A stretch of DNA of 64,000 bases from assembly GCA_011170285.1 (NCBI GenBank), contig DUEE01000026.1, forward strand, positions 19,959 through 83,958, given 5' to 3'. Position numbers and translations under genes: made by a program. Below are positions 12,486 through 45,670 of the stretch, one piece after another; within the stretch, counting starts at the first letter, position 1; every line of letters starts with the position of its first letter. The notes beneath the pieces are model-generated. The model did no database searches. It worked only from the letters and a program-made list of their open reading frames with translations, and was not told the DNA's origin. Source of the stretch: Dehalococcoidia bacterium (lineage in GTDB: Bacteria > Chloroflexota > Dehalococcoidia > Dehalococcoidales > W498).

Positions 12486-12562
12486 TGGTCGGGGTGAGAG
12501 GATTTGAACCTCCGACCACCTGAACCCCATTCAGGTGCGCTACCTGGCTGCGCTACACCCCG
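12486..12562 (-). tRNA. tRNA-Pro (anticodon GGG), CCA encoded
   Basis: Minus strand CGGGGTGTAGCGCAGCCAGGTAGCGCACCTGAATGGGGTTCAGGTGGTCGGAGGTTCAAATCCTCTCACCCCGACCA folds as a tRNA; anticodon loop ATGGGGT. Confidence 0.95.
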
Positions 12563-24408: not shown

Positions 24409-24438
24409 TTGACACCGAATTTAGAGTTGATTTATAAT
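24409..24438 (+). promoter_or_regulatory. Promoter of the RamA-like gene
   Basis: TTGACA (24409-24414), 18-nt spacer, TATAAT (24433-24438). Confidence 0.65.
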
Positions 24439-24510: not shown

Positions 24511-26160
24511 ATGGGAAAACTGGGGATAGCTCTTGATTTGGGTACGAGTGGCTTCAGAGGACAAGCTATTGATCTGGATGATAGTAACAAGATAATCTCA
24601 ACAGCCATTACCACCCGACACCCCATGCCAGGAGCCAATGTAATCGACCATCTACATTTTGCCCTGGAGGTGGGACTGGAAACGGCCCACGAGACAGTTA
24701 TGCACGCTGTCAATCGAGTTATAGACAACCTCAGAATTGACAAAAATGATGTGGTTCGCTTGGCTGTCTGCGGCAACCCCATTCAGCTTTCTCTTTTCAG
24801 AGAAATTGAGATAAGAGACTTGGCTTATGCCGGAAAACGAAAGCTTGAACTTCTCGGGGTGGTTCCGCCCAAAAGAGATGCCCTAGTAGTTAAAGCCTCG
24901 GATATCACAGGTCTTAACCTGCCGTCCAACATAGACATTTTAATACCACCAGCGGTTCGCCACGAAATCGGAGCCGACGCCCTGGCCATGATGATCCAGT
25001 CGCATGCTCTGGAAAAGGAAGAAATCGCTATTGTCACCGATTACGGTACTAACAACGAAATGTCCCTCATAGTAGAGGGTCAAGTCTATACCGGCTCTAC
25101 GGCTGCCGGGCCCGCTCTGGAAGGGCAACAAATTGAAGATGGACTGTTAGCCCTCCCTGGAGCCATCTCTGATGTCGTTTACCAGGGTCTTGGTGTTGAT
25201 ACCGGATTTCAGTGTTTTATCCTTGATCAGGATATGTATCCCCAAATGGGAGACCGGGTTGACCCTGATTCGGGAAAAGTCCTGGATAAAGGAGAGTTAG
25301 AGGCTGTGGGCATTACTGGTACCGGAGTGGTTGCCCTAATCAGCCAGGGACTAAATTGTGGTCTGATTTCACTTCCCAAAATCAATATAAGCAACGGTGA
25401 AATTAAACTTGCCAACGGCGTCAAGTTTACCAATCATGATGTTGAGGAGGCGGGTAAAGCTATCGGTGCGGTCAGGGCGGGGCACGTGACCCTTTGCCAA
25501 GCAGCCGGTATAGAGATGAGTCAAATAGAAACGGCTTATATGTCTGGTGCCTCTGGAACCTATGTTGATGCCCTTAAGGCTCAGCAAATAGGTATGGTAC
25601 CGGCTGGGGTTAAGCAAATTTTCCAGGTAGGTAACACCTCACTGGCTATGTCCAGGGATATGATCGCCAGCGAGAATGCACTGTGGGATATGCAAAAAAT
25701 GGCTACTGAATTACGCCAAACCCATATTATGTTTGCCGATTCTAAGGTTTTCGCTAAGGTTTACATCCTTGAACTTGCCTATTGGACTGAGGGTATGCCC
25801 TGGAAGGCCTATCAACAATTTCTTAAGAAATACGGCTTTTCACCCATGCAGGAGGTTGGCGATATTCCTCAGGTTATTAAGACTGTGGCGAGGGACATAC
25901 CAGACTTAGGGATTATGGGGCTGAAGATTATTCCTGACATCGGGGAGAGAAAAGAGATGCTTTTCGACGGCTGCATCGGCTGTGGGGATTGTGTCGAAGA
26001 GTGCCCTGAGGATGCTCTTTTTCAGAAGGATGACGATACCATCGTTATTGACCTGGCTCTATGTGATGGGGTGGCTTGTATGCGATGTGAAAGGGCATGC
26101 CCCGAAAAGGTGTTCAACTTGATTAAACTGCTTACTTCAGAAGCTAAGTCCAATCAATAA
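24511..26160 (+). CDS. RamA-like corrinoid protein reductive activator (ASKHA ATPase-like with C-terminal ferredoxin domain)
   Basis: LGIALDLGTSGFRGQAIDL, VTDYGTNNEMSL, YMSGASGTYVDALKAQQIGMVP; C-terminal CIGCGDCVEECPEDAL and CDGVACMRCERACPE. Confidence 0.88.
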   Translation: MGKLGIALDLGTSGFRGQAIDLDDSNKIISTAITTRHPMPGANVIDHLHFALEVGLETAHETVMHAVNRVIDNLRIDKNDVVRLAVCGNPIQLSLFREIEIRDLAYAGKRKLELLGVVPPKRDALVVKASDITGLNLPSNIDILIPPAVRHEIGADALAMMIQSHALEKEEIAIVTDYGTNNEMSLIVEGQVYTGSTAAGPALEGQQIEDGLLALPGAISDVVYQGLGVDTGFQCFILDQDMYPQMGDRVDPDSGKVLDKGELEAVGITGTGVVALISQGLNCGLISLPKINISNGEIKLANGVKFTNHDVEEAGKAIGAVRAGHVTLCQAAGIEMSQIETAYMSGASGTYVDALKAQQIGMVPAGVKQIFQVGNTSLAMSRDMIASENALWDMQKMATELRQTHIMFADSKVFAKVYILELAYWTEGMPWKAYQQFLKKYGFSPMQEVGDIPQVIKTVARDIPDLGIMGLKIIPDIGERKEMLFDGCIGCGDCVEECPEDALFQKDDDTIVIDLALCDGVACMRCERACPEKVFNLIKLLTSEAKSNQ

Positions 26161-26186: not shown

Positions 26187-26777
26187 ATGAGCATTGACAG
26201 GGTGAAGGTAGATACTCTGATGATAGCTAGCTTGAAAAATGTGGAGGGAATTGTAGATGTCAGCCCTCTTTCCGATAAAGATAAGCAGGAGGTCATCAAC
26301 ATTGAATCGAATGCCGAAAAGCAATCCTTGATGGGTTTTGGCAAGGTCATCAGCACCGGGGTAAGGGAAGTACTTAATTATGATTTGGTCTACGTGGCGC
26401 TAACCGACATGGAGTTTGAGTGGGGTTGTCCTTCCCTTATTTTAAAAAAGGGTGAGGAGGTGGTGGGCGAAGAGGTTAAGGATGATGAAATTATCGCCAG
26501 TCTTTCCAAACAGAAAAATGTCTGGTTTATGCATAAGAACTTTGTTGTTTACAAAGACAAGATATCTTTTCCCCAGGATATTATGGAAAAGCTCTGCCAT
26601 TTTGAGATCCCGTCCCTCCCAACACAATGGTGTGTCCTGGAAGGCAGCGATTTTTCATGTCAACCTATTATTTACGCTAACCCAGCCACCCCCACTGATA
26701 TCTTTTTGAAGAATAGCTATTTTGAAGGGCTTGACCAGTGGGGATTGGGTACTATTCTCATCGGGGTCAACTTTTAA
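26187..26777 (+). CDS. Orphan protein following the RamA-like gene
   Basis: 196 aa, ATG start 26 nt after the activator stop; no family recognised. Confidence 0.7.
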   Translation: MSIDRVKVDTLMIASLKNVEGIVDVSPLSDKDKQEVINIESNAEKQSLMGFGKVISTGVREVLNYDLVYVALTDMEFEWGCPSLILKKGEEVVGEEVKDDEIIASLSKQKNVWFMHKNFVVYKDKISFPQDIMEKLCHFEIPSLPTQWCVLEGSDFSCQPIIYANPATPTDIFLKNSYFEGLDQWGLGTILIGVNF

Positions 26778-26907: not shown

Positions 26908-27543
26908 TTAAGCCTCTTGAGCTGTTTTTATCAGAAACATTGGCAATTCAAGGGCACTAACCGGACCTAATTTGACCTCCCAATCCCATGAGGCCAATCT
27001 TCTAATATCCGCAGCCAAAGGGTCGCACAATCCGGGGAGAATGGCTTTACGATGTTTAACTTCATTGGCTATCCCCGATTCGCCTAGCGATTTGTAAACT
27101 TCAGAGGGGCTAAAAGTGCCTGCCGTCACTGCACTATCTATGCTGTAGCTCTGACTATCTACAGCTAATAAAAAGGCATCTACATTAGTTTCTTCAAGGA
27201 TAAGCTTTATGGCGGAAATTGTTTCATGACAATTTCCATTTATCAGTACCATAGAATCAGGTGTTGGATTTCCTATTTTTATGATACCAGGGGTGACTGG
27301 CCTCCCTGGTGCGGTATCGCCTATTGAAGGCAGTTCTATCTTAAACACTTTTTCCATCGCCGCTGCTATTTTTTCGTCCAGTATGGGACATTTAGTAGGC
27401 AGTGCTTTGCCTTCAATTACTAGTTCAGCAAATTCCACATCACTATCCGCTCCACATTCACTATAGCTCACATCTGGAAGATAATTAAGCAAATCTTCCT
27501 CATCAAGTGGACGAAACTCTTCGTTTTTTTGCTCTCCAGCCAT
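26908..27543 (-). CDS. Stand-alone protein resembling C-terminal part of CODH/ACS corrinoid Fe-S protein large subunit (AcsC/CdhE-like), degraded Fe-S motif
   Basis: PVTPGIIKIGNPTPDSMVLINGNCHETISAIKLILEETNVDAFLLAVDSQSYSIDSAVTAGTFSPSEVYKSLGESGIANEVKHRKAILPGLCDPLAADIRRLASWDWEVKLGPVSALELPMFL; N-terminal LPDVSYSECGADSDVEFAELVIEGKALPTKCP. Confidence 0.7.
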   Translation of the reverse strand: MAGEQKNEEFRPLDEEDLLNYLPDVSYSECGADSDVEFAELVIEGKALPTKCPILDEKIAAAMEKVFKIELPSIGDTAPGRPVTPGIIKIGNPTPDSMVLINGNCHETISAIKLILEETNVDAFLLAVDSQSYSIDSAVTAGTFSPSEVYKSLGESGIANEVKHRKAILPGLCDPLAADIRRLASWDWEVKLGPVSALELPMFLIKTAQEA

Positions 27544-27727
27544 TCTATTATTCCTCCTTTAAGACTAAGACTTAGTTAAACGTTAATGGGATATTCTTGT
27601 CATATATGGCAAATCTTCCTATCAAACCCACCAATGTAAGATAGTACTATAATAAGGTTTTGATTGACATATTAATCCTATATACTGAATTATAGCAATC
27701 TCCTACTATGACTAATAAGCAGAAAGA

Positions 27728-27792
27728 GAGGCACACCAACTGCTTTCATATCATTGCTTTTATGTTATGCAATAAGGTCGTGGGTGTGCCTC
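27728..27792. repeat. Nested inverted repeat (candidate structured RNA/terminator)
   Basis: GAGGCACACC (27728-27737) / GGTGTGCCTC (27783-27792) with inner ATTGC (27753-27757) / GCAAT (27769-27773). Confidence 0.6.
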
Positions 27793-27802
27793 CCTATGTG
27801 CT

Positions 27803-28303
27803 TTAAAATGGCAGTTTTCCCATAGCCAACAGCGTGAAAGCAGGCCACCACAGACCGACGAATGTCCATATGATTAGTGACCAACCTAATGCCTTGCCGG
27901 AGAACTTACCGTATGCGTTGAGCCAGACCATTATATAGAGAACTAAGTATCCAGCACAACCCAGCGCCATGTAGCCGTTCGGGGCCCAGACGGTTAAAAA
28001 GAGAATTATGTAGACAATGGTTATTAAGCCTACCGTGGCACTGGCATTGCCCACTGATCTCGGGTCTGTCAGCCCGGCATATAGGGAGTACCCCACGATA
28101 TTGTAGAAGAACCCGTAGGTGAAGAGCAAGCCGCCAACAATCGGGTCCGCGCCCATGGTTGCAATAATGACGGCGCCCACAATCGTAAGTGTACCCACCA
28201 TGAGGGTAAGGGCACCTGTCCCTCTGGCCTCTCCTTTGCCTAGGAGAAGTAATCCTACGGGAAACCACATAAGACTAATTCCTAAAAGTACTGGGACTAC
28301 CAT
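27803..28303 (-). CDS. AmiS/UreI-like membrane protein
   Basis: 166 aa, about six TM helices; LLFTYGFFYNIVGYSLYAGLTDPRSVGNASATVG...FLTVWAPNGYMALG...YGKFSGKALGWSLIIWTFVGLWWPAF. Confidence 0.6.
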   Translation of the reverse strand: MVVPVLLGISLMWFPVGLLLLGKGEARGTGALTLMVGTLTIVGAVIIATMGADPIVGGLLFTYGFFYNIVGYSLYAGLTDPRSVGNASATVGLITIVYIILFLTVWAPNGYMALGCAGYLVLYIMVWLNAYGKFSGKALGWSLIIWTFVGLWWPAFTLLAMGKLPF

Positions 28304-28530
28304 ATTCCCTTCCTCCTTTTCTTGATTGATTAAAAATGTGCTATAACTCTAATATTAACTCATAAAAGTGACAAACATCACTCCTAATGAGTGTTTATCA
28401 TCCTCATACGCATTCCCCCTCGCTCAAGCTTTCTTGGGAATTCTCTAAAGTTGCCTCCGAATAAATTCACCGTCCCATCTACTTTTGGTAACACGGGGCG
28501 GTAACAATAACAGGGTCAGGAAATAACCTT

Positions 28531-29511
28531 CTAACCGCTCATCCCCGCTAAACAACGGTTGACCGCAGTCCCAATCAGTTCCTTTTTTAGGTTTCTCCCG
28601 ATAATTGAGATTTTGCTTTTTTGGGCACTTTTAACCTCTTGCCAGGAAACTTCTCCTGAGGCAAGTTGTCCCACCACCCATTTGTTATCAACCCTGAATA
28701 TTCCTTTGGCTCTGACTATTTCGTCCCCTAAAAGGTTAGAATTTAGCAAGTCTTGAAACAGCTTTTCTAATTCTTGCTGTTCAAAAGAAAGTTCATAAGT
28801 ACAACCAAAAGATTCATAGCCTAAAGTATCTTCATCCTCGTGGATATGGATAAACCCCATTTCTTCTACTTCCTCTGTCGGGGAAGCCGTTTCCGCTTCA
28901 TAAGCAGCGGACAAATAAGGGGCGGCGGATAGGGCTGATTTGTATTCTTCCCAGTCCACCGCCCCAAACTCAGTTAAAATAACAGGAACTTGAGGATTTA
29001 TTGCTAATATAGCCTCTTTGATAACCTCGGCTTTTATTTTTTTGATTCTATCACATTTATTTAGCAAAACCACTTGCGCATTTCCTACTTGGGACTCGAC
29101 AAAATGCCGATTACGCTTATAAAAATCCATGAAATTTGTAGCATCGGTAATCAGAATATTATGTACTTCTTCTATCCTATCCTGGAATAATTCGGCGTTT
29201 ACGATGTACATAATCTGGGTTATTTGGGCTACACCCGTCGGCTCGATTATAACCCTTTGTGGATTGATGGTTTCACTTATCTCCAGCATTTGGCGTCTAA
29301 AGTCCACTTGAAGGGTACAGCAAATACATCCGGCAGGCATTTCTACTGTTTCAGCACCCTGACTGGCTAACAGTTCTCCATCTATACCCACCTCGCCGAA
29401 TTCATTTACCAACACTACAATTTTTTCATCCTGCCCCCATTCCCTAAGGATATTGGCGATAACAGTGGTTTTTCCAGAACCCAAGAAACCAAAAACAATA
29501 TCAGCAATCAT
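28531..29511 (-). CDS. CobW/P47K-family metal-binding GTPase
   Basis: FGFLGSGKTTVIANIL, EFGEVGIDGELL, GCICCTLQVDFRRQ, IIEPTGVAQ, NKCDR. Confidence 0.88.
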   Translation of the reverse strand: MIADIVFGFLGSGKTTVIANILREWGQDEKIVVLVNEFGEVGIDGELLASQGAETVEMPAGCICCTLQVDFRRQMLEISETINPQRVIIEPTGVAQITQIMYIVNAELFQDRIEEVHNILITDATNFMDFYKRNRHFVESQVGNAQVVLLNKCDRIKKIKAEVIKEAILAINPQVPVILTEFGAVDWEEYKSALSAAPYLSAAYEAETASPTEEVEEMGFIHIHEDEDTLGYESFGCTYELSFEQQELEKLFQDLLNSNLLGDEIVRAKGIFRVDNKWVVGQLASGEVSWQEVKSAQKSKISIIGRNLKKELIGTAVNRCLAGMSG

Positions 29512-29533
29512 CCTCTACCTTTTCTTTATCTCG

Positions 29534-30283
29534 TTATCCGTTCCACTTGGATCGCATATCCTCCCAGCCCATACCGGCTAGGGCATCCTCAGCCAATCCG
29601 CATGACCAGCCATCCTCTTTACCCCAGATACTCAGTGGGAAAGAGGTTGACCATTCTTCGGCGACTGCTCCCCCTCCCGAGATAAAGGGGATAACTATTC
29701 CCGCTGCCTCAAGCTGGTGGCAAATCTTGGGAAAAGCAGTCATAGTAGTGGTCATTAGGGCTGTTCCGGTGACCATGATCGGTTTCTCCGCCTTAACTGT
29801 GGCTACAACCGTATCTACCGGACAATCACACCCCAGATTGATAACCTCAAAACCGCCAGCATTGAGAAGGGCGTTGGCGATAACCTGACCGATGTCGTGA
29901 ATATCACCCTCGGCAGTATGGGTTACCACTTTGCCCTTTCTATCCATAGCCTTACCCATCTTTGCTTCGCAAAGAGCGATACCAGCGTTCATGGCATCGG
30001 CGGCTAGAATAACCTGGGGCAAGAAATAGACACCCTCATCCCACAGACGACTCACTTCATTCATACCCTTGACAAGACCATCATTAATAACGTCCATAGG
30101 CGCTTTGGTCTCTAAAGCCTTTTTGACTGGGGCCTCAATGTCTTCCGCTTCACCTTCAACAACGAATTTGCCGATCGCGTCCAAAACGGGGTCATCAGAG
30201 ATTTTGCGCGCCTCCTGCTTCTTCACCTCAGTATCAAGGTCATAGCGCTTGAAGATATTAGAAAAATCACTCAAGAATTTCAT
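29534..30283 (-). CDS. Methyltransferase corrinoid (B12-binding) protein, MtaC-like
   Basis: GDIHDIGQVIANALLNAGGFEVINLG cobalamin-binding motif (DxHxxG); immediately downstream of MtaB-like gene. Confidence 0.9.
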   Translation of the reverse strand: MKFLSDFSNIFKRYDLDTEVKKQEARKISDDPVLDAIGKFVVEGEAEDIEAPVKKALETKAPMDVINDGLVKGMNEVSRLWDEGVYFLPQVILAADAMNAGIALCEAKMGKAMDRKGKVVTHTAEGDIHDIGQVIANALLNAGGFEVINLGCDCPVDTVVATVKAEKPIMVTGTALMTTTMTAFPKICHQLEAAGIVIPFISGGGAVAEEWSTSFPLSIWGKEDGWSCGLAEDALAGMGWEDMRSKWNG

Positions 30284-30400
30284 GCTTTCCTCCTTTTATC
30301 AATTGATTCTGACAGCCTCACTTACTCTTAGCTACTTACACTATCACCAAAACTTTTAACTCGGTGCGTGCCTAAGAGTAATATTTAAATGTTCCCCGTT

Positions 30401-31783
30401 TTACTTCAATCCATAGGAATCCGGATTAAAGCCTGGCACTAACTTCTTGTATTTTGGCATAGCCATATCTAAGAAGTTTCCTTCGTCCTCAGGAAGAGCC
30501 TCCATCTGTTTCATTGCATCCTCTAGGGCTTCTTTTTCAAAGGCGGTCAATTTAAACTTGGTGTCAGCCAGGATGATGCTACCTGCCTTCATGGCCCCGG
30601 CTCTGGCTCTGGTGTAGAATCCCTTAGATGTGTTCTTGACAATTTCATTACCTATCGCCCAGGCATTATCGGGTACCAATATAAGGCTGTGCGAATCCCG
30701 ATAGGCATCAGAGTTAACCAGGATGGTTTGCATCTCTTTAGCCAACCCCAAATCTATGGAGCAGTTAAACTGAGCGCAATCGTAACCGAGTATCTCAGCG
30801 AAAACCGAGGTGGTGGTGGCACCGAACATATCGTGATATTCCACAGCCTCGTTGCTCCAGAGGTCACATACGGCAGCAATCAGGTTGCTGGCCAGGTCGG
30901 AGTGCCCACAAGCACTAGTCTTTCCCTCGGTGGTGATAGGAACCCCCGTCATAGCTTTTACGATGGGGTCCTCATAGGCGCAGTCCTTGGTGGGTCCAGT
31001 AGCACCACACTCATAGGCTACCATAGTCCTTGCCGCCGAAATGGCTCGGGCTAGAGCAGCATATACATGAGGTACATCCTTGGAGACCAAACCCCCTGCC
31101 ATGAACATAGCTGTGTTTGCCTCTGAACAGTTAGTGTCCCCGCCGGGAATACAGTTATTCTTCTTGCAAATATCTACAATCTGGTTCCAACACCACTCCA
31201 TGTCTATAGAGCCCAGATAACCTATGCCCATGAGAATACCTGCCATATCCTGGCGGATGAGGGCGTAGTCAAATACTTCCTTCCCGCCCATAGACTCGAT
31301 GGAGACATGGTCGGAATACTTGGAACAAGCATCAAAGGATGCCATCATTTCATGGAGATAATCGGATGTCCGCATGTGGACGCTCTCTGGCCTGCGCAGG
31401 TCAGCTATAGTCGACGTATGAGCCGACTTCAGCCCGTATTTAGCCAGCATATCATCCATCTGCCTAGCTACCTGAGCAGCAATATCTCCACCCCAATCGG
31501 GAGTATGAGTCATCTGGTATACATGCTCATTCTCGACCACCAGAGTGGGATGTCCCACGACGACCATTCTTTCCAAGGCATCGAAGTTCATCCTTTCATA
31601 CTCACGCATAAGCGTCTTCTTGGTCTTTTCGGAGCCCGGTCTGGGATGAGGTTTTACTGTAGGATGGACATAGCCTCCACCATACTTAATTCCCCTCTTG
31701 CTGGTAACCGGGAATTTAGCAGTTCCAAAAATCATCTCATCGCCGCTTTTAAATGCCATTTCAGTTCGTGGTTTTCTTGCCAT
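30401..31783 (-). CDS. mtaB: Methanol:corrinoid methyltransferase MtaB-like
   Basis: 460 aa; KYGGGYVHPTVKPHPRPGSEKTKKTLMREYERM, GGDTNCSEANTAMFMAGG, ECGATGPTKDCAYEDPIVKAMTGVPI TTEGKTSACGHSDLASN; adjacent mtaC and mtaA homologues. Confidence 0.85.
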   Translation of the reverse strand: MARKPRTEMAFKSGDEMIFGTAKFPVTSKRGIKYGGGYVHPTVKPHPRPGSEKTKKTLMREYERMNFDALERMVVVGHPTLVVENEHVYQMTHTPDWGGDIAAQVARQMDDMLAKYGLKSAHTSTIADLRRPESVHMRTSDYLHEMMASFDACSKYSDHVSIESMGGKEVFDYALIRQDMAGILMGIGYLGSIDMEWCWNQIVDICKKNNCIPGGDTNCSEANTAMFMAGGLVSKDVPHVYAALARAISAARTMVAYECGATGPTKDCAYEDPIVKAMTGVPITTEGKTSACGHSDLASNLIAAVCDLWSNEAVEYHDMFGATTTSVFAEILGYDCAQFNCSIDLGLAKEMQTILVNSDAYRDSHSLILVPDNAWAIGNEIVKNTSKGFYTRARAGAMKAGSIILADTKFKLTAFEKEALEDAMKQMEALPEDEGNFLDMAMPKYKKLVPGFNPDSYGLK

Positions 31784-32075
31784 TTTTTTCCTCCTTTTTA
31801 ATAAATAGCTTGCTTCTATTTATCTTTTCGTTTAATCTTCTTGGGTATCACCTCCTTTCTTATTTAATTATAAGTCTGGGGAATAACAAACCAAGTATAC
31901 TCTACCACACCTCACTTATTTTGCAAACTGTTATTACAAGCTCTGTCATCCTTCATACTCTTCTTTTCTGAATCTTACCTCTTCATACTCCTCTTCTCTC
32001 AACCTTACCTTCGTGTGGTAATACTGCTAAAGGCTAACGATCAATTAGTTCCGGCCAAGCCGGCTATGGTTCTAA

Positions 32076-33089
32076 TTAACTTGTATAACTTTTGGCAACT
32101 TCCACCATAGCTATAAGGTTTTCTGTGGGGGTACCGGGGGCTACGGCGCAGCCTGGAGCCAATATCTGAATACCCGCCTCTACCTGCTCTCTACAAGCCG
32201 CCTTTACTTCATCCGGGGTTTTCATAAATAATACTTTAGCCGCGTCTGCCCCACCCATAAAGATAGGCTTCGGTCCAACTATTTCCCTGGCTAGCTTTAG
32301 ATCAGTGGCAGGTTCTAAACTCAAGATATCGGGGCCGCTCTTCCCCTCCCACTCTATGATGGAGCCGACATCACCACAAATATGGAGTATCGTGGGCACA
32401 TTTATCTCCTCAAATTGCTTGGCTTGAAATTGATATACCAAGTCATGGTAACTCTTGGGCATTATAATGTCGGGAGAAGCCGTCATATCCTCATTGGCGA
32501 TGATATCGGCACCGGCATCAATAAGGGCGTGGGCTAACGCGGTTCCTGCCTTTTCCGATATTTCCAGAAAGGGGAGGAGCTTATCCGGCGCCTTAAGGGA
32601 GGCTTTCAGTGTTTTTGTCACCCCTAACAGATAAGCGGCAATGGAAAAGGGTCCGATAATTCCAGCCTCAATGAGTACCTCATCGCCCAGTTCCTTCTTC
32701 ATGATTGTAATTGCCTTGAGTAGTTCCGGTATTCTTGCCCGTGACAGATAGTCGGCGGGAAGCTCCTTCGGTGGGATATCATCTATTGTATACACGGGTG
32801 GCTCTGCCGCACCAGGGATACCCTTTTCGCCGCCAGACTTTACCTTAGCCCCAAGAGCCTCAGCCTCAGTCATCTGGTCAAAGGGGGCCCTTACCACATC
32901 AAAGCCGAGAATGGTATAGGCAGCCATAGCCTGTTTAGCCATGGGTTCTGCCTGGTCGTGCCCTTCCGGCCAGTAGGCGCCCACCTTTTCCATTTGGTCG
33001 TAAGTTACAGTTGAGTTGGCAGTAAAGCAGGGCATACGGTCCGGTTTTTGATGGTTCAGTACCGCCAGTACGCGTTCCTTAGAGTTCAT
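32076..33089 (-). CDS. mtaA: MtaA-like methylcobamide methyltransferase (uroporphyrinogen decarboxylase superfamily)
   Basis: NSKERVLAVLNHQKPDRMPCF...HICGDVGSIIEW...APGCAVAPGTPTENLIAMVEV; RBS AAGGAGG before ATG. Confidence 0.87.
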   Translation of the reverse strand: MNSKERVLAVLNHQKPDRMPCFTANSTVTYDQMEKVGAYWPEGHDQAEPMAKQAMAAYTILGFDVVRAPFDQMTEAEALGAKVKSGGEKGIPGAAEPPVYTIDDIPPKELPADYLSRARIPELLKAITIMKKELGDEVLIEAGIIGPFSIAAYLLGVTKTLKASLKAPDKLLPFLEISEKAGTALAHALIDAGADIIANEDMTASPDIIMPKSYHDLVYQFQAKQFEEINVPTILHICGDVGSIIEWEGKSGPDILSLEPATDLKLAREIVGPKPIFMGGADAAKVLFMKTPDEVKAACREQVEAGIQILAPGCAVAPGTPTENLIAMVEVAKSYTS

Positions 33090-33129
33090 ACTAGTCCTCC
33101 TTTCTTTATATTAATAATAATGATTATAA

Positions 33130-33158
33130 ATTATAGTGTCTAATTAGGTGTATGTCAA
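33130..33158 (-). promoter_or_regulatory. Consensus sigma70 promoter of the mtaA-led cluster
   Basis: Minus strand TTGACA (33158-33153), 17-nt spacer, TATAAT (33135-33130); about 40 bp upstream of the mtaA ATG. Confidence 0.82.
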
Positions 33159-33165
33159 GTATGCG

Positions 33166-34472
33166 AATTTTATCGGTAGTGTAACGTATTGTGTGTAAAA
33201 AGAGAGGGGCGTATCCTTTCAATTAGAGCAAAAACTAAAAGAAAGGAGGGAAACGCCCCATAGTCATGGTAAAAGACCTGACCCAACTAACCATAAAGGA
33301 TTATTGGAAAGAGGTCAAGGAAGAGGATGATTGGTGGGGAGACTTGAAACAAGAAGTGGTGAGAGCGCTGAAAGGATTTCTTGAAACTACTATGGAAGTG
33401 GATATAGTAGAACAACTTCAGGCAGGTAAGTACTGGCGCACCGAGTTGCGTCGTGGCTACCGAAATGGTTACCGATGTCGGAGTCTGCTCACCGAGTTCG
33501 GTCTAGTAGAGTGCCTAAAAATACCTCGTGACCGGGATGGGTATTATCAACCGGCAGTGCTTGCCCGCTATCAGCGCCGCCAGCGAGAGGTAAACCATTT
33601 GGTGAGAGAATCATTCCTGGCAGGTGTTAGCACCCGCCGGGTGAGGGAAGTGCTTGCTCCGATACTGGGGGAGACATTAAGTCCTCAGACGGTATCTCGA
33701 ATTGCCTCAAGTCTTGATAATGAGGTACGCCGATACCATAGCCGGTTAATCGGTGATGGATATTGCTACCTCTTTCTAGATGGTATCACATTGAAGGTCA
33801 AGACAGTGACAGGAGCGAAGAAACGCCTGGTACTCTGTGCCTATGGCATTACCCCAGAGGGGAAACGGGAACTACTAAGCTTCTGCCAAGCTACCGCGGA
33901 GAGTGAGGCACAATGGGAAGCTTTCCTCCAAAACCTATACCGAAGAGGATTGGAGGGTAATAATTTGAGCCTGATAGTGACCGATGGTTGTCCCGGTCTC
34001 CACCGGGCACTGGATATGGTCTACCCATACGCAAAGCGCCAGCGATGCTGGGCACACAAGTTACGGAATGTTGCCAGTAAACTGCCAAGAAGGATTCAGG
34101 AAAGCTGCCTGAAAGGGGCAAAAAGTATATACCAGGCACAGACCAGGCAGGAAGCGAAAAAACGCTTCTTTGAATGGGCGGGATCCTGGCGAACCATAGC
34201 ACCAAGAGCAGTAAGCTGTCTTGAAGATGATATTGACGAGCTCTTGAATTTCCTGGCTTGTCCCGAGCAGCACTGGAAGAAAGTTCGGACTACCAATGTC
34301 ATAGAACGAGCCTTCCGTGAAGTGCGCCGCCGTACCAGACCAATGAGTTCTTTTAATAATTCAGCAAGCGTAGACCGTATTATCTATGGAGTTATTAGTC
34401 ACTTGAATAAAAACTGGAAGGAGAAACCCCTTAAAGAATTTACACACAACAATTGACATTACCAATTTTATC
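33166..34472 (+). mobile_element. IS256-family insertion sequence with 9-bp target site duplication
   Basis: Element 33175-34463 with imperfect terminal IRs (GGTAGTGTAACGTATTGTGTGTAAA / GGTAATGTCAATTGTTGTGTGTAAA on the opposite strand), flanked by AATTTTATC at 33166-33174 and 34464-34472. Confidence 0.93.
33266..34456 (+). CDS. IS256-family (mutator-type) transposase
   Basis: 396 aa intact; GYRNGYRCRSLLTEFGLVECLKIPRDRDG, FLAGVSTRRVREVLAPILGETLSPQTVSRI, LFLDGITLKV, VTDGCPGLHRAL, TTNVIERAFREVRRRTRPM. Confidence 0.95.
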   Translation: MVKDLTQLTIKDYWKEVKEEDDWWGDLKQEVVRALKGFLETTMEVDIVEQLQAGKYWRTELRRGYRNGYRCRSLLTEFGLVECLKIPRDRDGYYQPAVLARYQRRQREVNHLVRESFLAGVSTRRVREVLAPILGETLSPQTVSRIASSLDNEVRRYHSRLIGDGYCYLFLDGITLKVKTVTGAKKRLVLCAYGITPEGKRELLSFCQATAESEAQWEAFLQNLYRRGLEGNNLSLIVTDGCPGLHRALDMVYPYAKRQRCWAHKLRNVASKLPRRIQESCLKGAKSIYQAQTRQEAKKRFFEWAGSWRTIAPRAVSCLEDDIDELLNFLACPEQHWKKVRTTNVIERAFREVRRRTRPMSSFNNSASVDRIIYGVISHLNKNWKEKPLKEFTHNN

Positions 34473-38093: not shown

Positions 38094-40463
38094 TTAGTCG
38101 ACTTGTGATACTCTCTCGCGGTATGCCTTCATTATGTCGTGGCGGCGCAATATCCCTATCAAGCGCGTTCTATCATGCCGTTCCACAACGGGGATACGCC
38201 CGTAATCTTTGTCAGTCGCTCGTAACATCTCATATAAAGTCTGGTTGGGATAAGTCACGAAAAGTTCCTTAGTAGCGATATCGCCTACCTTAAGGTTAGT
38301 CTTCCCACTTCGCACAGCACTCGCCAGGTCGGCTACTGTAACACACCCAAATAGACGCCCCTCCTCGTCTAGAACCGGGAAGCCATGATGACCTGTATCA
38401 CGTAATCGTTCTCTTAATTCCTCCAGAGATATAGTGGAAGAGACTGTAGGGAAATCGGGGGTCATTACCTCTCTAACCGTGATTGCTTTCATAATATCCT
38501 CCCCGACTTCTTCCCGATAAATGTCCAATAACTGCTCTTTTGGAAAATCAATCTGCTCGATAAAATATTCATTGAAATCGAGCCGGGAGGAAAGCTCAAC
38601 ATGTTCAATAAAATGGCCAAGCTCACCAGCCATCTGCCAGTAACGCTTGGATAAAAGAACCATGGAAGCCCCGGTACTGGCAGCATTACCTAAGGAGGAT
38701 ATAATCCGCCGATTAACATTGGGAATAAGTCCGATGCGCACAGCGCAATTGGGATTAACATAATTTCCAAGTGCCCCTGCTAGATACACATGCCCAATGT
38801 CCTCGGTCCCGATACCCATTTCGTCCATTAGAGTTTTTACACCGGCTGCTATAGCCCCCTTGGCGAGTTGAAGCTCGCGAACATCTTTTTGGGTAAGATA
38901 GATTGGTTTACCATTGTAGCTTTCCTCTGCGGAAGCGATGAGGAAGTTATTGACTGCCAACCCATCGCCAATTACTCTTGACTTCAGATTCTTTGCTGCT
39001 TCTACTTGAGGGGGACAAATTAGGCCTTCGTAATCGATGATGCCCAACTCCAAGAGCACGGCAACCAGTTCTACTAATCCGCTTCCGCAAATACCCTTGG
39101 GCTTTATATTACCAATTACCTGATAATGAAGGTCGCCTTCTTCGAAACTGACGGCTTCGATGGCTCCAGCAGCAGCAATCATCCCGTAAGAGATCCTTGC
39201 GCCTTCCAAGGCAGGACCGGCAGCGGCAGAGCAGGTCATGATTCTTTTCTGATTACCAATAAAGATTTCTCCATTGGTGCCGAGGTCCAATGCTAGAATT
39301 AATTCATCTTCTTGCTCCGCGGCACCTGAAGCCAGTATGACACTCAGCAAGTCCCCGCCAATATACCCAGATTTTACTGGCATAATGTAAAAAAGTGCCT
39401 CGGGATTCAATCGGAGACCAACATCTGATGCCCTCACAATTAGACCATCGGTTAAAACAGGCGCAAAGGGTGCCTCGGCAATTCCCGATGGATCCAGCTT
39501 CAGCAAGAGGTGTTGCATAGTGGTATTCCCCGCAGCAACGGTAACAAAGACATCGTCTGGGTGAAGCCCCACTGTTCTTAGAAGACGGTCAGTTATATGA
39601 TTCAAGTCATCGATGATAATTTGGTACAGATTCTCCAAACCATTAGGATGTTCTTTGACATATTGATGACGAGCGATAACATCCGTGCCATACTTACTCT
39701 GATTGTTGAGACAAGAAACAACGGCAACCTCTGTCCCATTCAACAAATTGAAAAGCTTGCCTACCAGAGTGGTAGTGCCGAGGTCAAAAACCAGTCCATA
39801 GAGTGAGTGTATTTCCTCCAGTTTCTGCCAGGTCATCAGGCGATTCTCATGAAGCACTGCCGCTCCACGGAATTGGGCTTCCTTTAACATATGGGGTAAG
39901 GCACGAAGACAGTGAAGCGAGGCTTTCAAGTCCACATATTCGGGCCCCAACGCTATTTTGACCCGGTCTAAATCGGAAATCCCTTCATCCTCAGGAATTG
40001 AGGATAAGGTGACAACCCGCTGACCAAGAAGGGGATTAATATGAAAATGGGGGGTATAGCCAGTTTTGAGGATTTGAGAAAACTCTATCTCAGACTCAGG
40101 TTCCGTGAGGTAGACCACTAAATCCTTACCCACTGTGGTGCGGCAGGCAAGACGAAAACCTTGTTCTATCTCCTCATCGTCAAGGAATTCCCTTTCTTCA
40201 TTGGATAGGGGACCTATTGAAGAGAGCATCTTGACCTTGCATTTACCACATTTACCCAGTCCCCCACACTCCCCCAGCTTTATACCTGCCTTTCGCAGAG
40301 ATTCCCAAACGGCGTCACCCTGACGAACCTTCAGCCAGAGGTCGTCAGGCAGAACATTCAACGAGAAGTATTTCTTTTTCTGTTTTTCTAATGGAATAAA
40401 GCCAATAGGGCTTTTTTCCTTAAATTTGTGGTTCTCCGTCTTCTCCATCTTCACTACTCCCAA
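38094..40463 (-). CDS. RACo-type corrinoid activator (2Fe-2S + DUF4445 ASKHA) fused to C-terminal CBS-domain pair
   Basis: N-term CGGLGKCGKCKVKML...RLACRT; VFDLGTTTLVGKL, LALDLGTNGEIFIG, CSAAAGPALEGARISYGM, YLAGALGNYVNP; C-term VREVMTPDFPTVSSTISLEELRERLRDTGHHGFPVLDEEGRLFGCVTVADL...RIPVVERHDRTRLIGILRRHDIMKAY. Confidence 0.92.
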   Translation of the reverse strand: MGVVKMEKTENHKFKEKSPIGFIPLEKQKKKYFSLNVLPDDLWLKVRQGDAVWESLRKAGIKLGECGGLGKCGKCKVKMLSSIGPLSNEEREFLDDEEIEQGFRLACRTTVGKDLVVYLTEPESEIEFSQILKTGYTPHFHINPLLGQRVVTLSSIPEDEGISDLDRVKIALGPEYVDLKASLHCLRALPHMLKEAQFRGAAVLHENRLMTWQKLEEIHSLYGLVFDLGTTTLVGKLFNLLNGTEVAVVSCLNNQSKYGTDVIARHQYVKEHPNGLENLYQIIIDDLNHITDRLLRTVGLHPDDVFVTVAAGNTTMQHLLLKLDPSGIAEAPFAPVLTDGLIVRASDVGLRLNPEALFYIMPVKSGYIGGDLLSVILASGAAEQEDELILALDLGTNGEIFIGNQKRIMTCSAAAGPALEGARISYGMIAAAGAIEAVSFEEGDLHYQVIGNIKPKGICGSGLVELVAVLLELGIIDYEGLICPPQVEAAKNLKSRVIGDGLAVNNFLIASAEESYNGKPIYLTQKDVRELQLAKGAIAAGVKTLMDEMGIGTEDIGHVYLAGALGNYVNPNCAVRIGLIPNVNRRIISSLGNAASTGASMVLLSKRYWQMAGELGHFIEHVELSSRLDFNEYFIEQIDFPKEQLLDIYREEVGEDIMKAITVREVMTPDFPTVSSTISLEELRERLRDTGHHGFPVLDEEGRLFGCVTVADLASAVRSGKTNLKVGDIATKELFVTYPNQTLYEMLRATDKDYGRIPVVERHDRTRLIGILRRHDIMKAYRERVSQVD

Positions 40464-40471
40464 CGTAGAAG

Positions 40472-41062
40472 CTAGATTAACTCGATGAGCTTTTTTTCAA
40501 GCTCCGAATAATTCACGTCTCTTATCTCCAAAGATAAATTTAGGAATTCGGCTAGTTTCCCAGCCTGGAATATGAGGTCGGGGTCTTCTGGTTGCCGCAC
40601 ATAGAGCAATCTCCGGTAATGTTCAAAACAATATTTTCGCATTTCCTGGTCATAGAGTTCCAATGGATTCATACAATATTCTTCAAAGTTTAGAATAAGT
40701 TCTTTTTCTAGAAAATAAGTTCCCGCAGTATCGTTAATAAGTTGCTGGAATAGCTCAGCACCGAGAAGCATTTCATAGCAGTAATGCCCGGGTACTTTGA
40801 TAGCTCCGTGAAGTCGGCATAACTCACTTATGCCTGGGAAACATTCTCCATAAAGGCATATGACCCGCTCATTCCTTTTTTTAGCGTAAGCAATTACTTC
40901 TAGCAGGCGACCTTTTAGCTCTTGCGGCTTCAAATGTAGGTTGGGTGGTAAATAAGTTAAACGCAGTTCGGGATATCTCTCTCCCAGACGAATATGTTCA
41001 AGGGCTGGTTTGAAAACCGAGCAGGCAATGATGCGCGTCGGTCTTTTATTTGCCTCTCTTAT
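40472..41062 (-). CDS. DUF1638 family protein, start codon uncertain (apparent ATA)
   Basis: Frame upstream of the track ORF reads IREANKRPTRIIACSVFKPALEHIRLGERYPELRLTYLPPNLHLKPQELKG...; AGGAGG at 41073-41068; no in-frame ATG/GTG/TTG before the conserved-looking N-terminus. Confidence 0.75.
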   Translation of the reverse strand: MREANKRPTRIIACSVFKPALEHIRLGERYPELRLTYLPPNLHLKPQELKGRLLEVIAYAKKRNERVICLYGECFPGISELCRLHGAIKVPGHYCYEMLLGAELFQQLINDTAGTYFLEKELILNFEEYCMNPLELYDQEMRKYCFEHYRRLLYVRQPEDPDLIFQAGKLAEFLNLSLEIRDVNYSELEKKLIELI

Positions 41063-41072
41063 TATAACCTCC

Positions 41073-42509
41073 TCAAATATATTGGCTACCAGAAAAAGCT
41101 TTTTTTATATCGTCAATCAGGTCCACATCTAAGAGACCCTCTTCACTCTCTTCAAGGATTTTGCCAACTAGTTCATTGGCACGGCTTAACATGTCTGGAT
41201 GCCCCATTTCCTCCCAGATGTCGAAGTTGCAACGCACCTGCAGGTTAGGATAAAAGAATTCGTCCATCATGTGGTTAATAGTATGCTCTTCAGCAACGAA
41301 ATTTCCGCCGGGGCCAACTTGCTCGATTACATCGTAAGCTAAGGTATCTTCGTTCACTTTAATTCCCTGCAATACTCGCTGAGTCATTCCGATAATTTCA
41401 TTGTCAATAACATACTGTTCGTAGGAGATGGAATTGCCCGAATCAATCACTCCGGCCGTCAGGTGAATAAAGTCTGCCCCAGTCATTGCCACCGTCAGAC
41501 TTGAAACACTTTTCTCGAAGCCAGCCTGGATATCAGGCCTTTTGGCTTCAGTTACCCCTCCGGAGGCATAAATGGGCAAGTTATAGAGCTTTGCCAATTG
41601 AACTGCGGCTGCATTCATCATTCCCATCTCCACTGAGCCCATTGTAAATTCCATTTTTCGCAAATCCATGGTCGTAGCGACCGCGCCATATAGCACCTTG
41701 GCTCCTGGAGCAAAAACCTGAGCAATAGTGACTCCGGCTAAAGCTTCAGCATGCATTTGTGAAAGAGTCCCTGCCAGGGTAGCAGGAGCAGTGGCTCCGG
41801 CTATGGGCGCAGGTGCACAGGTAGTGGGAATACCATGGGTGACGCAGAAACGGAGAATCTCCAGTGTTTCGGAATCAATAGTAAGAGGACTTATCGGGTT
41901 GGTTATTACCGAAACGAAGGGCTTTTCTCGAAGGCGTTCTTCTCCTCTGGCAATGATACTTGCAAGTTTCCACATCTGCTCGGCTCCATGCAGGTCGTCA
42001 CAGCCCCCCATCACGTGTTTGGTGGTATGGTTGAGAGCGTAATAGAAATCGAGCAGATGATAATTTGCCGGTTTTATGTCATGAGCCTGGCAGGCAATGA
42101 TATAAAAGCGAATGTTATCTAATTTATCCACTAGGGCAGCAGTATTAGCCACATCCCTTAGCAGGGTGAGGCGATATCCGCCTGTTGACATATCGAGGAT
42201 ACGAAATACCCTTCCGCCGTTGCCGAAGTAGACATTACCTTCTCCCAGGTGAATGTCGTTTTTACCGTCACGGGAATAAAGGGTAAAGCACGAAGGTGCT
42301 CGACCTAGAACTTCATCAAGCCAGCCTTCTTCAAAGCGGACCCTTTGATTATCAGAATCAACCTTTGCCCCGGCTGCTTTCAGTATGTCTCGAAAGGCGC
42401 TGTCAGCAATCCTGACCCCAATGCGTTCCAGTATGCGCCGCCCCGTCTGGTCAATCTGTTTTAAATTTTCCTTGGTAAGTGGTCTGTAGAATGGCGAGCT
42501 GTCTCCCAT
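41073..42509 (-). CDS. Trimethylamine methyltransferase (MttB) family protein, non-pyrrolysine
   Basis: 478 aa uninterrupted; ILERIGVRIADSAFRDILKAAGAKVD...GGCDDLHGAEQM...ISPLTIDSETLEILRFC; MttB family architecture. Confidence 0.9.
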   Translation of the reverse strand: MGDSSPFYRPLTKENLKQIDQTGRRILERIGVRIADSAFRDILKAAGAKVDSDNQRVRFEEGWLDEVLGRAPSCFTLYSRDGKNDIHLGEGNVYFGNGGRVFRILDMSTGGYRLTLLRDVANTAALVDKLDNIRFYIIACQAHDIKPANYHLLDFYYALNHTTKHVMGGCDDLHGAEQMWKLASIIARGEERLREKPFVSVITNPISPLTIDSETLEILRFCVTHGIPTTCAPAPIAGATAPATLAGTLSQMHAEALAGVTIAQVFAPGAKVLYGAVATTMDLRKMEFTMGSVEMGMMNAAAVQLAKLYNLPIYASGGVTEAKRPDIQAGFEKSVSSLTVAMTGADFIHLTAGVIDSGNSISYEQYVIDNEIIGMTQRVLQGIKVNEDTLAYDVIEQVGPGGNFVAEEHTINHMMDEFFYPNLQVRCNFDIWEEMGHPDMLSRANELVGKILEESEEGLLDVDLIDDIKKAFSGSQYI

Positions 42510-42523
42510 AGTTGAACTCCTTA

Positions 42524-43969
42524 TCAGTGCCCTTGGAGAACTCCAGCGATTTCCTGGAGTACTTCGGCAGGTTTAGGCTCTACCTGATGTTCGGAGAGGA
42601 TTCTTCTTGCCTCAATATTGCAGCGCTTGTAAAGGTCTTTAGCTCCAGCTTCTTCCCAGGAATCGTAGCGAGAGCGATCTAAAAGCTTGGGCAGAAACTG
42701 GGCTTGCATAAAATACTTAAAGGTGTGATCATCCGTAAGAAAGATGGAACCAGGCCCCCCATTTATCACTCTCTCTATCGCCTCGAGAGCCAGCGTTTCA
42801 TTATTAACAGGAATTCCCTCAGTGAAGAATCGGCTCATGGCTACCAATTCGTTGACCATGGTTACCATCTCTAGCGAAGAGGTGCTTCCGTATTCTAGAA
42901 AACCTATATCGTGGATTAGGTTACAGCGAGAGAGCATAGCACTCAGGATGGAGAACATGGCTTCGGCTCCTGCCTGAGCATCCATTACCTTGGCGTCTGA
43001 AGCTCCGGCAAAAGCCCAGATGGGCAGACCATAGACTTCATCACGCATATCAGCGAGTGCCGCTTGGGTGAGACTCCACTCAGGACCACCATAGGAGACA
43101 ACGGTGGATTTCATGTCCAGAACGCTGACATTGGGTCCAAAAAGGAAGGGCGACCCTTTGCCAGCCAGTTGATGAACTACCAGTCCTACCAGGTTTTCGG
43201 CGATTCCTAAAGCCATGGCTCCGGCAAGGGTTACCGGCGCTCCACCTCCAGCGTTGGAGCCAGAAGGAAGGCAGATGGGTATCTTCTTTTTGGCACAGAA
43301 AATGAGTTTTTCCACCACATTTTGGGGAAAGCGTAATGGACTGATTGGCTCGGAATAATTTAGAATAAATGGTTTGCTCCGGAGTTTATCTTCACCTCCT
43401 GCTACCAGGCAAGCCATCTCATAGATTTTAGCGATATCCTTACCACTATCGGCAATGAATACAATAGGCTTGTTGGTATTTTTGACCATTTCAGCAAAAA
43501 CATGAACGTAGATGTTCTCGACAGGAACGTCTTCAGGGTTAGCCATAGACATAGCAAAAGCGATGTTTTCCAACCCGTCAACTAGCTTAGCAAAATTGGC
43601 GACGTCTTTTAAGATAGCTCGACGGCGCTCACCAGTTCCCAAATCCAGAGTAAAAGTGGCATCCGAACCTGTGCCATAGAAATGGTTTCCGTTTGTGAGA
43701 GGCATCGCTTTTTTGCCCTTGTGGTCATAGAGGGCAATCTGCCTGGGTGCTGACCCTAGGGCTTCTTTAACAAGGTGGCCGGGTAGCCTGACCCAATCAT
43801 GGGAAATCTGGCAACCAGCGTTGGCGAGCATCTCCAGAGCACCAGGGTGCTCCATCTTAAAGCCTATCTTTTCCAGGATTTTCAAAGCGGCAGTATGAAT
43901 TGCTAACGCCTGTTCTCGGCTCAAAACCTTGAGTTGAGGTTGAAAAGTGGGGATATCTATCGGTTTCAT
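42524..43969 (-). CDS. Second MttB-family methyltransferase, non-pyrrolysine
   Basis: MKPIDIPTFQPQLKVLSREQALAIHTAALKILEKIGFKMEHPGALEMLANAGCQ...YSEPISPLRFPQNVVEKLIFCAKKKIP; start ATG 43969 (AAGGAG RBS) preferred over track start 44032. Confidence 0.9.
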   Translation of the reverse strand: MKPIDIPTFQPQLKVLSREQALAIHTAALKILEKIGFKMEHPGALEMLANAGCQISHDWVRLPGHLVKEALGSAPRQIALYDHKGKKAMPLTNGNHFYGTGSDATFTLDLGTGERRRAILKDVANFAKLVDGLENIAFAMSMANPEDVPVENIYVHVFAEMVKNTNKPIVFIADSGKDIAKIYEMACLVAGGEDKLRSKPFILNYSEPISPLRFPQNVVEKLIFCAKKKIPICLPSGSNAGGGAPVTLAGAMALGIAENLVGLVVHQLAGKGSPFLFGPNVSVLDMKSTVVSYGGPEWSLTQAALADMRDEVYGLPIWAFAGASDAKVMDAQAGAEAMFSILSAMLSRCNLIHDIGFLEYGSTSSLEMVTMVNELVAMSRFFTEGIPVNNETLALEAIERVINGGPGSIFLTDDHTFKYFMQAQFLPKLLDRSRYDSWEEAGAKDLYKRCNIEARRILSEHQVEPKPAEVLQEIAGVLQGH

Positions 43970-44018
43970 TTTTTCTCCTTTCCTTTTGAGCTGAGAATCA
44001 CAATGCCTACCTTCGAAT

Positions 44019-44657
44019 TTAAAGTATTCCAAGCAATTCCTTGGCTTTGCTCACCGCGGAACCGGCGTCGGATGCATAAGAGTCCGCCTTGATTTCCCGG
44101 GCATATTTTTCGGTAACCGGTGCTCCGCCAATCATCACCTTGACTTTATCTCGGATGCCGGCTTTCTGCATGGCTTCGATAGTCCGGGACATGGATGGCA
44201 TGGTGGTGGAAAGTAACGCCGACATGCATACGATGTCCGGCTCCACCTCTTGTATCTTTTGGACGAACTTTTCAGGAGGAATATCCACCCCTAGGTCAGT
44301 TATATCAAATCCCGCTCCCCCCATCATCATGCCAACCAGGTTCTTACCGATGTCGTGCAAATCTCCCTTTACAGTACCGATCAGCACCTTCCCCTTGGAG
44401 GTAACATCACCCTCTTGAAATAACGGTTGTAGCAGCTTCATGCATTCTTGCATGGTCTTAGCGGAGCGCAACATCTGAGGGACAAATATCAACCCTTTCG
44501 AATATCTATCACCCACCTTATCCATAGCCGCAATGAGTCCCTTATCAAGAATGCTCTTAACTTCGCTTCCAGCATCTAAAGCTCTCTGCGTTTCCGCCAC
44601 CGCTGTCTTGATATCGCCCTTGCTGACAGCTTCTTCCAATGCCTCAAACTCATTCAT
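44019..44657 (-). CDS. Methyltransferase corrinoid protein (MttC/MtbC-like)
   Basis: GTVKGDLHDIGKNLVGMMMGGAGFDITDLGVDIPPEKFVQKIQEVEPDIVCMSALLSTTMPSM; start ATG 44657 (the track extends to 44696). Confidence 0.92.
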   Translation of the reverse strand: MNEFEALEEAVSKGDIKTAVAETQRALDAGSEVKSILDKGLIAAMDKVGDRYSKGLIFVPQMLRSAKTMQECMKLLQPLFQEGDVTSKGKVLIGTVKGDLHDIGKNLVGMMMGGAGFDITDLGVDIPPEKFVQKIQEVEPDIVCMSALLSTTMPSMSRTIEAMQKAGIRDKVKVMIGGAPVTEKYAREIKADSYASDAGSAVSKAKELLGIL

Positions 44658-44705
44658 CTTTAGCCTCCTTAAAAAGTCTATCTCATTAAAACCCAAAAAG
44701 CAAAA

Positions 44706-45506
44706 TCAATTCCCAACTATGCGTCCGCTTTGGTAAGCGTCAATAAAGTTTCCGCAATATTCATCCCGTCCTAGGAGCATCTCAACCGCAAGGAGGGTTG
44801 ACATAAGCTGCTTGTCGAGCGGGTCTAAAATAACTGCTGACAGATTATGAGCAATGCAGAGAGCCAGGAAGTTGCGATTGATTAAGCGGCGTTCGGGGAG
44901 ACCGAAAGAGATGTTGGAAAGCCCACAGATAGTATTCACGCCTGGGAAATCGTTCATGATTTTGTGGATAGCTCCCATAGCGGCCGTTCCCATACTAGTA
45001 TCCACTGAAACAGGAAGCACCAATGGGTCTACATAAATCTTTTCCAAAGGGATTCCTTCGTTAGTAAGCTTCTTTATCAGTTCTGAGCCGACATCGACTC
45101 TATCTTCTATAGTGGTCGGCATCGAGGCCTGGCCCATGCAAAGGGCGACTACATGACAAGGCTGGGAAGTGATTATGGGCAGAAGGGAACGAAAGCGGTC
45201 TTCTTCTAGTGAAATGGAATTTATCATCGGCTCGCCCTTGTGTTTTTTAATGGCTTCCGACAGAGCCTTGGGATTGGGGCTGTCTAGGCATAAGGGTAGA
45301 TCTACTTCGGCTTGAACTGTTTCTACCAGCCAGCAGAGGTAGTCAACTTCTTCGTCCAGAAAGGTTCCGGCGTTAACATCGATGTAATGGGCACCCGCTT
45401 CGGCTTGCTCTCTGGCAATCTTACAGATGAACTCGGCGTCCCGTTTATCCGCAGCTTCCCCAATGCTCCTTCGACTCGTATTTATCTTCTCTCCCACAAT
45501 AATCAT
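44706..45506 (-). CDS. Methyltetrahydrofolate:corrinoid methyltransferase (pterin-binding family)
   Basis: IIVGEKINTSRRSIGEAADKRD, AEAGAHYIDVNAGTFLDEE, LCLDSPNPKAL, MINSISLEE, GLSNISFGLPERRLINRNFL; start ATG 45506. Confidence 0.9.
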   Translation of the reverse strand: MIIVGEKINTSRRSIGEAADKRDAEFICKIAREQAEAGAHYIDVNAGTFLDEEVDYLCWLVETVQAEVDLPLCLDSPNPKALSEAIKKHKGEPMINSISLEEDRFRSLLPIITSQPCHVVALCMGQASMPTTIEDRVDVGSELIKKLTNEGIPLEKIYVDPLVLPVSVDTSMGTAAMGAIHKIMNDFPGVNTICGLSNISFGLPERRLINRNFLALCIAHNLSAVILDPLDKQLMSTLLAVEMLLGRDEYCGNFIDAYQSGRIVGN

Positions 45507-45670
45507 CGTAGATCCTCTTTTTGAATCTTTCAAACCTAAAACCAGTACCTAGATACCCGGATAAAGATTCTTTCTTGCACTACTAACATAACACAAATTG
45601 CAACCTATAACAAGGTTACAGGTTGCCTCTTTGGAGTGCTGGCGGCGGAGTGAAAAAGCACCAATGGGGC

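Follow-up and report, generated by a model that had tools for sequence, protein, structure and literature searches.

The 64,000-nucleotide stretch of DNA analyzed here (hereafter the window) comes from a Dehalococcoidia bacterium of the phylum Chloroflexota (contig DUEE01000026.1, positions 19,959 to 83,958, forward strand) and encodes a cluster of eight genes that is probably best explained as a horizontally shared bacterial methanol:corrinoid:tetrahydrofolate (THF) methyltransferase module. In the established MtaABC system, methanol is activated at the zinc of MtaB and gives its methyl group to MtaC, the carrier from which MtaA passes it on, with THF as the acceptor of MtaA in acetogens, and RamA-type proteins re-reduce the cobalt with ATP (PMC5770442, PMC13391211). 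The cluster in the window combines homologs of these four proteins with a CobW GTPase, an AmiS/UreI-family membrane protein, a 211-aa protein related to the corrinoid/iron-sulfur protein (CFeSP) of the Wood-Ljungdahl pathway (WLP), and u196, as we call a conserved protein of 196 aa that belongs to no known family.

The eight genes fall into two convergent groups, each preceded by a perfect match to the sigma-70 promoter consensus: mtaA-mtaB-mtaC-cobW-amiS-211aa on the minus strand and ramA-u196 on the plus strand. A preliminary description of the region 26908-33158 had recognized the six minus-strand genes, and family searches recover all six as intact, co-directional open reading frames with the coordinates and families it gave; however, its six-gene frame overlooked ramA and u196, which belong to the cluster as well. 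The consensus promoter it placed before mtaA was likewise recovered (TTGACA-N17-TATAAT, 33130-33158, minus strand, 12/12 match, about 40 nt upstream of the gene), as one of two perfect sites detected in a window-wide scan, against 0.05 expected. The other (TTGACA-N18-TATAAT, 24409-24438, plus strand) lies upstream of ramA. The further proposal that all six genes stand behind the one promoter agrees with its placement, but this argument is positional and is qualified by the intergenic gaps, which from mtaA to the 211-aa gene measure 292, 117, 22, 227 and 259 nt in order, and by a strong hairpin between amiS and the 211-aa gene (27717-27803, minus strand, 24-nt arms, -35.1 kcal/mol, z -4.36). 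This possible terminator or 3' stabilizer lies directly after the amiS stop codon and has no trailing U run, and the 211-aa gene may thus form a separate transcription unit instead of belonging to the first transcript. The gap between ramA and u196 is 26 nt. An IS256-family transposase gene (33266-34456, plus strand) lies directly upstream of mtaA; some 110 nt separate its start from the promoter of mtaA. An Rfam search of the window returned a tRNA at 12489-12562 and nothing else.

MtaB (30401-31783, minus strand) matches PF12176 over its full length (635 bits, positions 4-460 of 460) and keeps all three zinc ligands, E164, C220 and C269 in the numbering of the Methanosarcina barkeri enzyme. 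It scores 628.9 bits against the NCBIfam equivalog NF040651, below the cut-off of 720, which is a naming threshold and not a functional test. MtaA (32076-33089, minus strand) belongs to the URO-D fold family (PF01208, 219 bits) and contains the HxC...C zinc motif as HIC...GC; it exceeds the cut-off of PRK06252 (290 bits against 244) and falls short of that of the equivalog NF040654 (298 bits against 400), and its assignment to a particular acceptor is putative. MtaC (29534-30283, minus strand) contains the helical B12-binding and Rossmann domains (PF02607 and PF02310) with the DxHxxG motif, here EGDIHDIG, which places it among the corrinoid proteins. RamA (24511-26160, plus strand) scores 764 bits against TIGR04270 (cut-off 500) and comprises an ASKHA domain and a C-terminal ferredoxin (Fer4) domain, as do the RamA/RACo corrinoid reductive activases in general; it differs from these in being paired with u196.

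Recurrence of the gene set across genomes

A scan of the MtaB alignment against 85,462 species genomes yielded 71 loci, to which further loci were added by whole-genome searches. Two of these, L009 from a deltaproteobacterial metagenome-assembled genome and L190, contain all eight genes, co-directional and in the order 211aa-mtaA-mtaC-mtaB-amiS-cobW-u196-ramA. A second arrangement, mtaA-mtaC-cobW-amiS-x-mtaB-ramA-u196, is found in L191, L192 and L202 and is followed by L200, L201 and L203 as far as their short contigs extend. Clusters of the Bacillota type have the order mtaC-mtaB-mtaC-cobW-ramA, to which amiS is added in L011, L013 and L066. Thus, mtaB is accompanied by amiS, cobW, ramA and u196 in different phyla, and the order of the genes varies. 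Among the 22 bacterial loci with a methanogen-type MtaB, neighborhood profiles detected ramA in 21, cobW in 19, amiS in 11, u196 in six and the 211-aa gene in two. The same profiles found amiS, u196 and the 211-aa gene at none of the 17 acetogen-type MtaB loci and at no archaeal locus, with cobW present at five of the 17. On these neighborhood counts, the suggestion that the accessory genes noted earlier belong with mtaBC holds for cobW and amiS, which are kept beside mtaB/mtaC in other phyla, and is nearly refuted for the 211-aa gene.

The best matches of seven of the eight window proteins lie within a single deltaproteobacterial group (L191, L192 and L200-L203), at 60-75% identity, which supports horizontal exchange of the gene set, in one direction or the other. 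Individually, MtaA is 60-66% identical to the MtaA of deltaproteobacterial clusters, MtaC 69-72% identical to its nearest relatives, RamA 67-69% identical to its counterpart in the nearest mta clusters, and MtaB about 75% identical to its counterparts in L191, L200, L201 and L202. The tetranucleotide profile of the cluster resembles that of sequence from the host and its order (0.74-0.81) more than that of the deltaproteobacterial loci (0.23-0.52); the composition of the cluster is adapted to the present genome. Contamination or misbinning of the contig was considered and found no support, as the profiles of the flanks match two other host contigs (0.83-0.89); their match to a genome of the same order is 0.81-0.82. 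Response-regulator- or sensor-like genes lie in or beside some of the deltaproteobacterial clusters (L191 7615-9066, L192 7603-8988 and L190 13700-17024; these calls rest on the starts of the sequences), which suggests a dedicated regulation there that the window does not appear to share.

With respect to known systems, the cluster shares with the Methanosarcina MtaABC (MtaBC structure 2i2x) a MtaB with 46% identity along its entire length and conserved zinc ligands, a DxHxxG-containing MtaC, a MtaA of the URO-D family and the co-localization with CobW homologs (PMC2770081). It differs in its bacterial host, the THF-based WLP and the loss of two otherwise conserved MtaB residues, and adds amiS, u196 and the 211-aa gene, none of which was found at the methanogen loci. 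The methanol:THF systems of acetogens and Bacillota (Moorella, Acetobacterium, Desulfofundulus kuznetsovii) have in common with it the three-component logic and the entry of the methyl group into the WLP, and some Bacillota clusters share the mtaC-mtaB-mtaC-cobW-ramA(-amiS) gene set. However, the acetogen-type MtaBs form a separate clade and have none of the three added genes nearby.

MtaB and the identity of the methyl donor

In the phylogenetic tree, the window MtaB groups with bacterial methanogen-type MtaBs, in a clade with L009, L190-L193 and L010 (support 100/99) that lies within the methanogen-type half. Several points nevertheless weigh against its belonging to a methanol module of eight genes. 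The NCBI equivalog cut-offs are missed by MtaA, MtaB and MtaC alike; the 211-aa gene is separated from amiS by a strong hairpin, its product lacks two of the cluster cysteines, and most of the related clusters do without it; methanol passes membranes without a channel; and E42 and R123 of MtaB are replaced, though both are conserved without exception in a set of 50 other MtaBs and MtaB-like proteins that span the methanogen and acetogen types and include two distant paralogs from the phylum. Of 68 near-invariant positions, the window MtaB has substitutions at six (E42T, R123T, A154S, A158S, A294G and G300S). E42 and R123 are otherwise replaced only in L192, by H and Q respectively; A294 and G300 are also replaced in L192, and G300 in L201 and L202 as well.

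To judge from the sequence, residues 42 and 123 would lie in conserved motifs near the C-terminal ends of the barrel strands and thus near the mouth of the barrel, and their replacement leaves the methyl donor uncertain, with methanol still a possible substrate. This raises the alternative that the pocket has been remodeled (E42T, R123T, A294G and G300S) for another small neutral donor, which would be imported by the AmiS-like channel, a proposition to which the restriction of the E42 and R123 changes to the window and L192 and their probable location lend some weight, as does the AmiS/UreI family being known for amides and urea. On the other hand, the zinc ligands are kept, and MtaBs that are 75% identical retain both E42 and R123 in similar gene arrangements that include amiS; further, the pocket role of the altered residues is deduced from their position in the sequence. 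A donor other than methanol is regarded as unlikely. A candidate correlate, a His-to-Tyr change in AmiS covarying with the changes in the MtaB pocket, was rejected, because the Tyr is also present in L201-L203, where E42 and R123 are intact. A more elaborate version combines these elements: the MtaBs of the window and L192 would be remodeled for a non-methanol donor entering through the AmiS-like channel, in the present genome an AcsC-derived stand-alone corrinoid protein may handle the methyl group and so link the methyltransferase directly to acetyl-CoA synthesis, and corrinoid activases would have a new partner in the 196-aa family. Taken jointly, this appears quite unlikely.

A distant MtaB homolog from the same phylum (L003/L183, in contig C16 of genome G283) has lost all three zinc ligands, with Q, G and S at the positions of E164, C220 and C269, and its gene lies just downstream of a 396-aa open reading frame.

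Accessory proteins of the module

CobW (28531-29511, minus strand) belongs to COG0523 on account of its nucleotide-binding domain (PF02492), CobW_C domain (PF07683) and CxCC metal motif (GCICCT); its scores against the ZigA and CobW models (91.6 and 92.4 bits) are both under the equivalog cut-offs, and its metal is putative. Metal loading had been among the roles suggested earlier for the accessory genes, and for cobW a zinc chaperone serving MtaB and MtaA is the best reading, because the co-localization of cobW with the zinc-dependent mtaA/B/C genes in Methanosarcina has already been described (Haas et al. 2009, PMC2770081). The AmiS/UreI-family protein (27803-28303, minus strand) matches PF02293 with 37 bits (cut-off 25), a model matched by six of seven members of the group, and its hydropathy is compatible with six membrane helices. 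This places it in the AmiS/UreI channel family, with a small neutral compound as its putative solute. A profile search of the PDB with the AmiS alignment gave no meaningful match.

No Pfam or NCBIfam match was obtained for u196 (26187-26777, plus strand), and five of its homologs are likewise without a significant Pfam match; a profile search of the PDB with the u196 alignment gave no meaningful match. Structure predictions from two-sequence alignments were unusable for both u196 and the 211-aa protein (mean pLDDT 34 and 43, respectively). Of the 86 genomes in the order of genome G1269, four encode u196, and three of these are among the five that carry MtaB; an overlap of three or more of the four would arise by chance with a probability of 815/2,123,555, or about 4e-4, with relatedness ignored. 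The fourth (L209, genome G1431) lacks MtaB and encodes a weak, diverged u196 homolog 15 bp from a convergent activase of the AcsV/RACo type. In every case where its surroundings were read (the window, L009, L190, L191, L192, L200, L202 and L209), u196 adjoins a corrinoid activase, and this adjacency suggests that it may have a role in corrinoid re-activation.

The 211-aa protein (26908-27543, minus strand) aligns to the CFeSP structure 2h9a_A first weakly, over residues 8-55, and then strongly, over residues 313-435 (whole-sequence E-value 1.7e-19). Its C-terminal part is homologous to the corrinoid-binding domain of AcsC (PF03599, 43 bits), and the central TIM barrel of AcsC is absent. The N-terminal iron-sulfur domain is a remnant (PF04060, 16.8 bits against a cut-off of 23) that lacks the full set of four cysteines of a [4Fe-4S] site, with Tyr and Asp in place of the first and third; all four are present in the orthologs from L009 and L190 (C-x2-C-x4-C...C). 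HgcA carries a cap-helix motif, NVWCAAGK. An assignment of the 211-aa protein to HgcA was rejected, as it has NGNCHETIS at the corresponding place, which does not fit that cysteine motif, and its sequence contains no membrane stretch. By its architecture it is a predicted mini-CFeSP, neither AcsC/CdhE, to whose iron-sulfur and corrinoid domains its own are homologous, nor HgcA, which shares the AcsC corrinoid domain (PMC7305189). Five further genomes of the class (L112-L116) encode stand-alone mini-CFeSPs close to 210 aa in length, some with the iron-sulfur cysteines and some lacking them, in unrelated gene contexts with no mtaB nearby. Separately, a 396-aa protein in a genome of the same order (L117 5411-6598, genome G298) with a CdhD-type corrinoid domain, C-terminal ferredoxin domains and a hydrophobic middle resembles an HgcAB-like fusion family.

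The homology to AcsC, the clustering of the 211-aa gene with the others in three genomes and an acetyl-CoA synthase encoded by the host would accord with the earlier suggestion that this protein couples the mta system to the WLP. The complete pathway in the genome agrees with it, but the host already has a full CFeSP, the protein has lost the TIM barrel and two of the four iron-sulfur ligands, and its gene is the least tied to mta of the whole set: the family is mta-linked at just two other loci, is absent from most of the related mta clusters and occurs without a nearby mtaB in the five genomes mentioned above. The coupling is a weak proposal and appears very unlikely. Finally, that this is an ordinary mta operon with chance neighbors, as the large intergenic gaps, the hairpin after amiS and the adjacent transposase might suggest, is very unlikely and largely refuted for amiS, cobW, ramA and u196 by their recurrence with mtaB across phyla in varied orders and the u196-MtaB co-occurrence within one order, and survives only for the 211-aa gene.

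Host metabolism and implications

The host genome assembly (1.38 Mb, 27 contigs, 88% complete) encodes a complete WLP, with fhs, folD, acsD, cooS, acsB, acsC and acsE in one cluster on a single contig, and two MetF candidates. Given this full THF-based pathway, THF is the likely acceptor of MtaA, and entry of the methyl group at THF is the simplest reading. In the methanol:corrinoid:THF module favored here, MtaB would use zinc to cleave off the methyl group of methanol, or of a small donor very much like it, and pass it to the Co(I) of MtaC, from which MtaA, likewise a zinc enzyme, would move it to the acceptor, most likely THF. RamA, probably together with u196, would re-reduce MtaC after oxidation of its cobalt, and CobW would supply zinc to MtaB and MtaA. 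The AmiS/UreI-like protein could let either the substrate, as a small neutral compound, or a small product cross the membrane, and the mini-CFeSP could serve as an auxiliary corrinoid carrier. Of the roles that we infer for the three added proteins, that of the channel is the strongest, followed by that of u196 in activation and then by that of the mini-CFeSP as a carrier.

Two further methyltransferase regions are present in the genome. One, in the window at 38094-45533 on the minus strand, encodes a methyltetrahydrofolate:corrinoid methyltransferase (44706-45533), a corrinoid protein similar to MtgC (44019-44696), two MttB-like proteins (42524-44032 and 41073-42509), neither of which has an in-frame TAG, a 153-aa protein, and an AcsV-type activase (38094-40463) whose C-terminal part is CBS-like. 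The other (L126; genome G000, contig C6, 23000-42000) encodes two MttB-like, three MtaA-like and one MtrH/MtgA-like proteins, an AcsV activase, a corrinoid protein and a CobW-like GTPase. From its predicted gene content, the organism looks broadly methyl-utilizing.

While the core MtaABC system and its link to cobW were already known, the association of amiS, u196 and the mini-CFeSP with mta genes appears to be the new part. No report of any of these three with mta genes, no paper on MtaB in Dehalococcoidia and none on AmiS with corrinoid methyltransferases was found in a literature search that had most subscription journals outside its reach. The cluster places methanol-type methylotrophy beside a complete WLP in a lineage of Chloroflexota where it is very rare: MtaB homologs were detected in three of the 399 genomes of the phylum, and none was found in the single congeneric genome. 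E42 and R123 emerge as candidate specificity residues of MtaB, and u196 offers a test case for a new partner of corrinoid activases. More generally, the bacterial "MtaABC" is often part of a larger conserved module, the further members of which would be a putative solute channel, a putative zinc chaperone and a candidate partner of RamA that has no assigned family.

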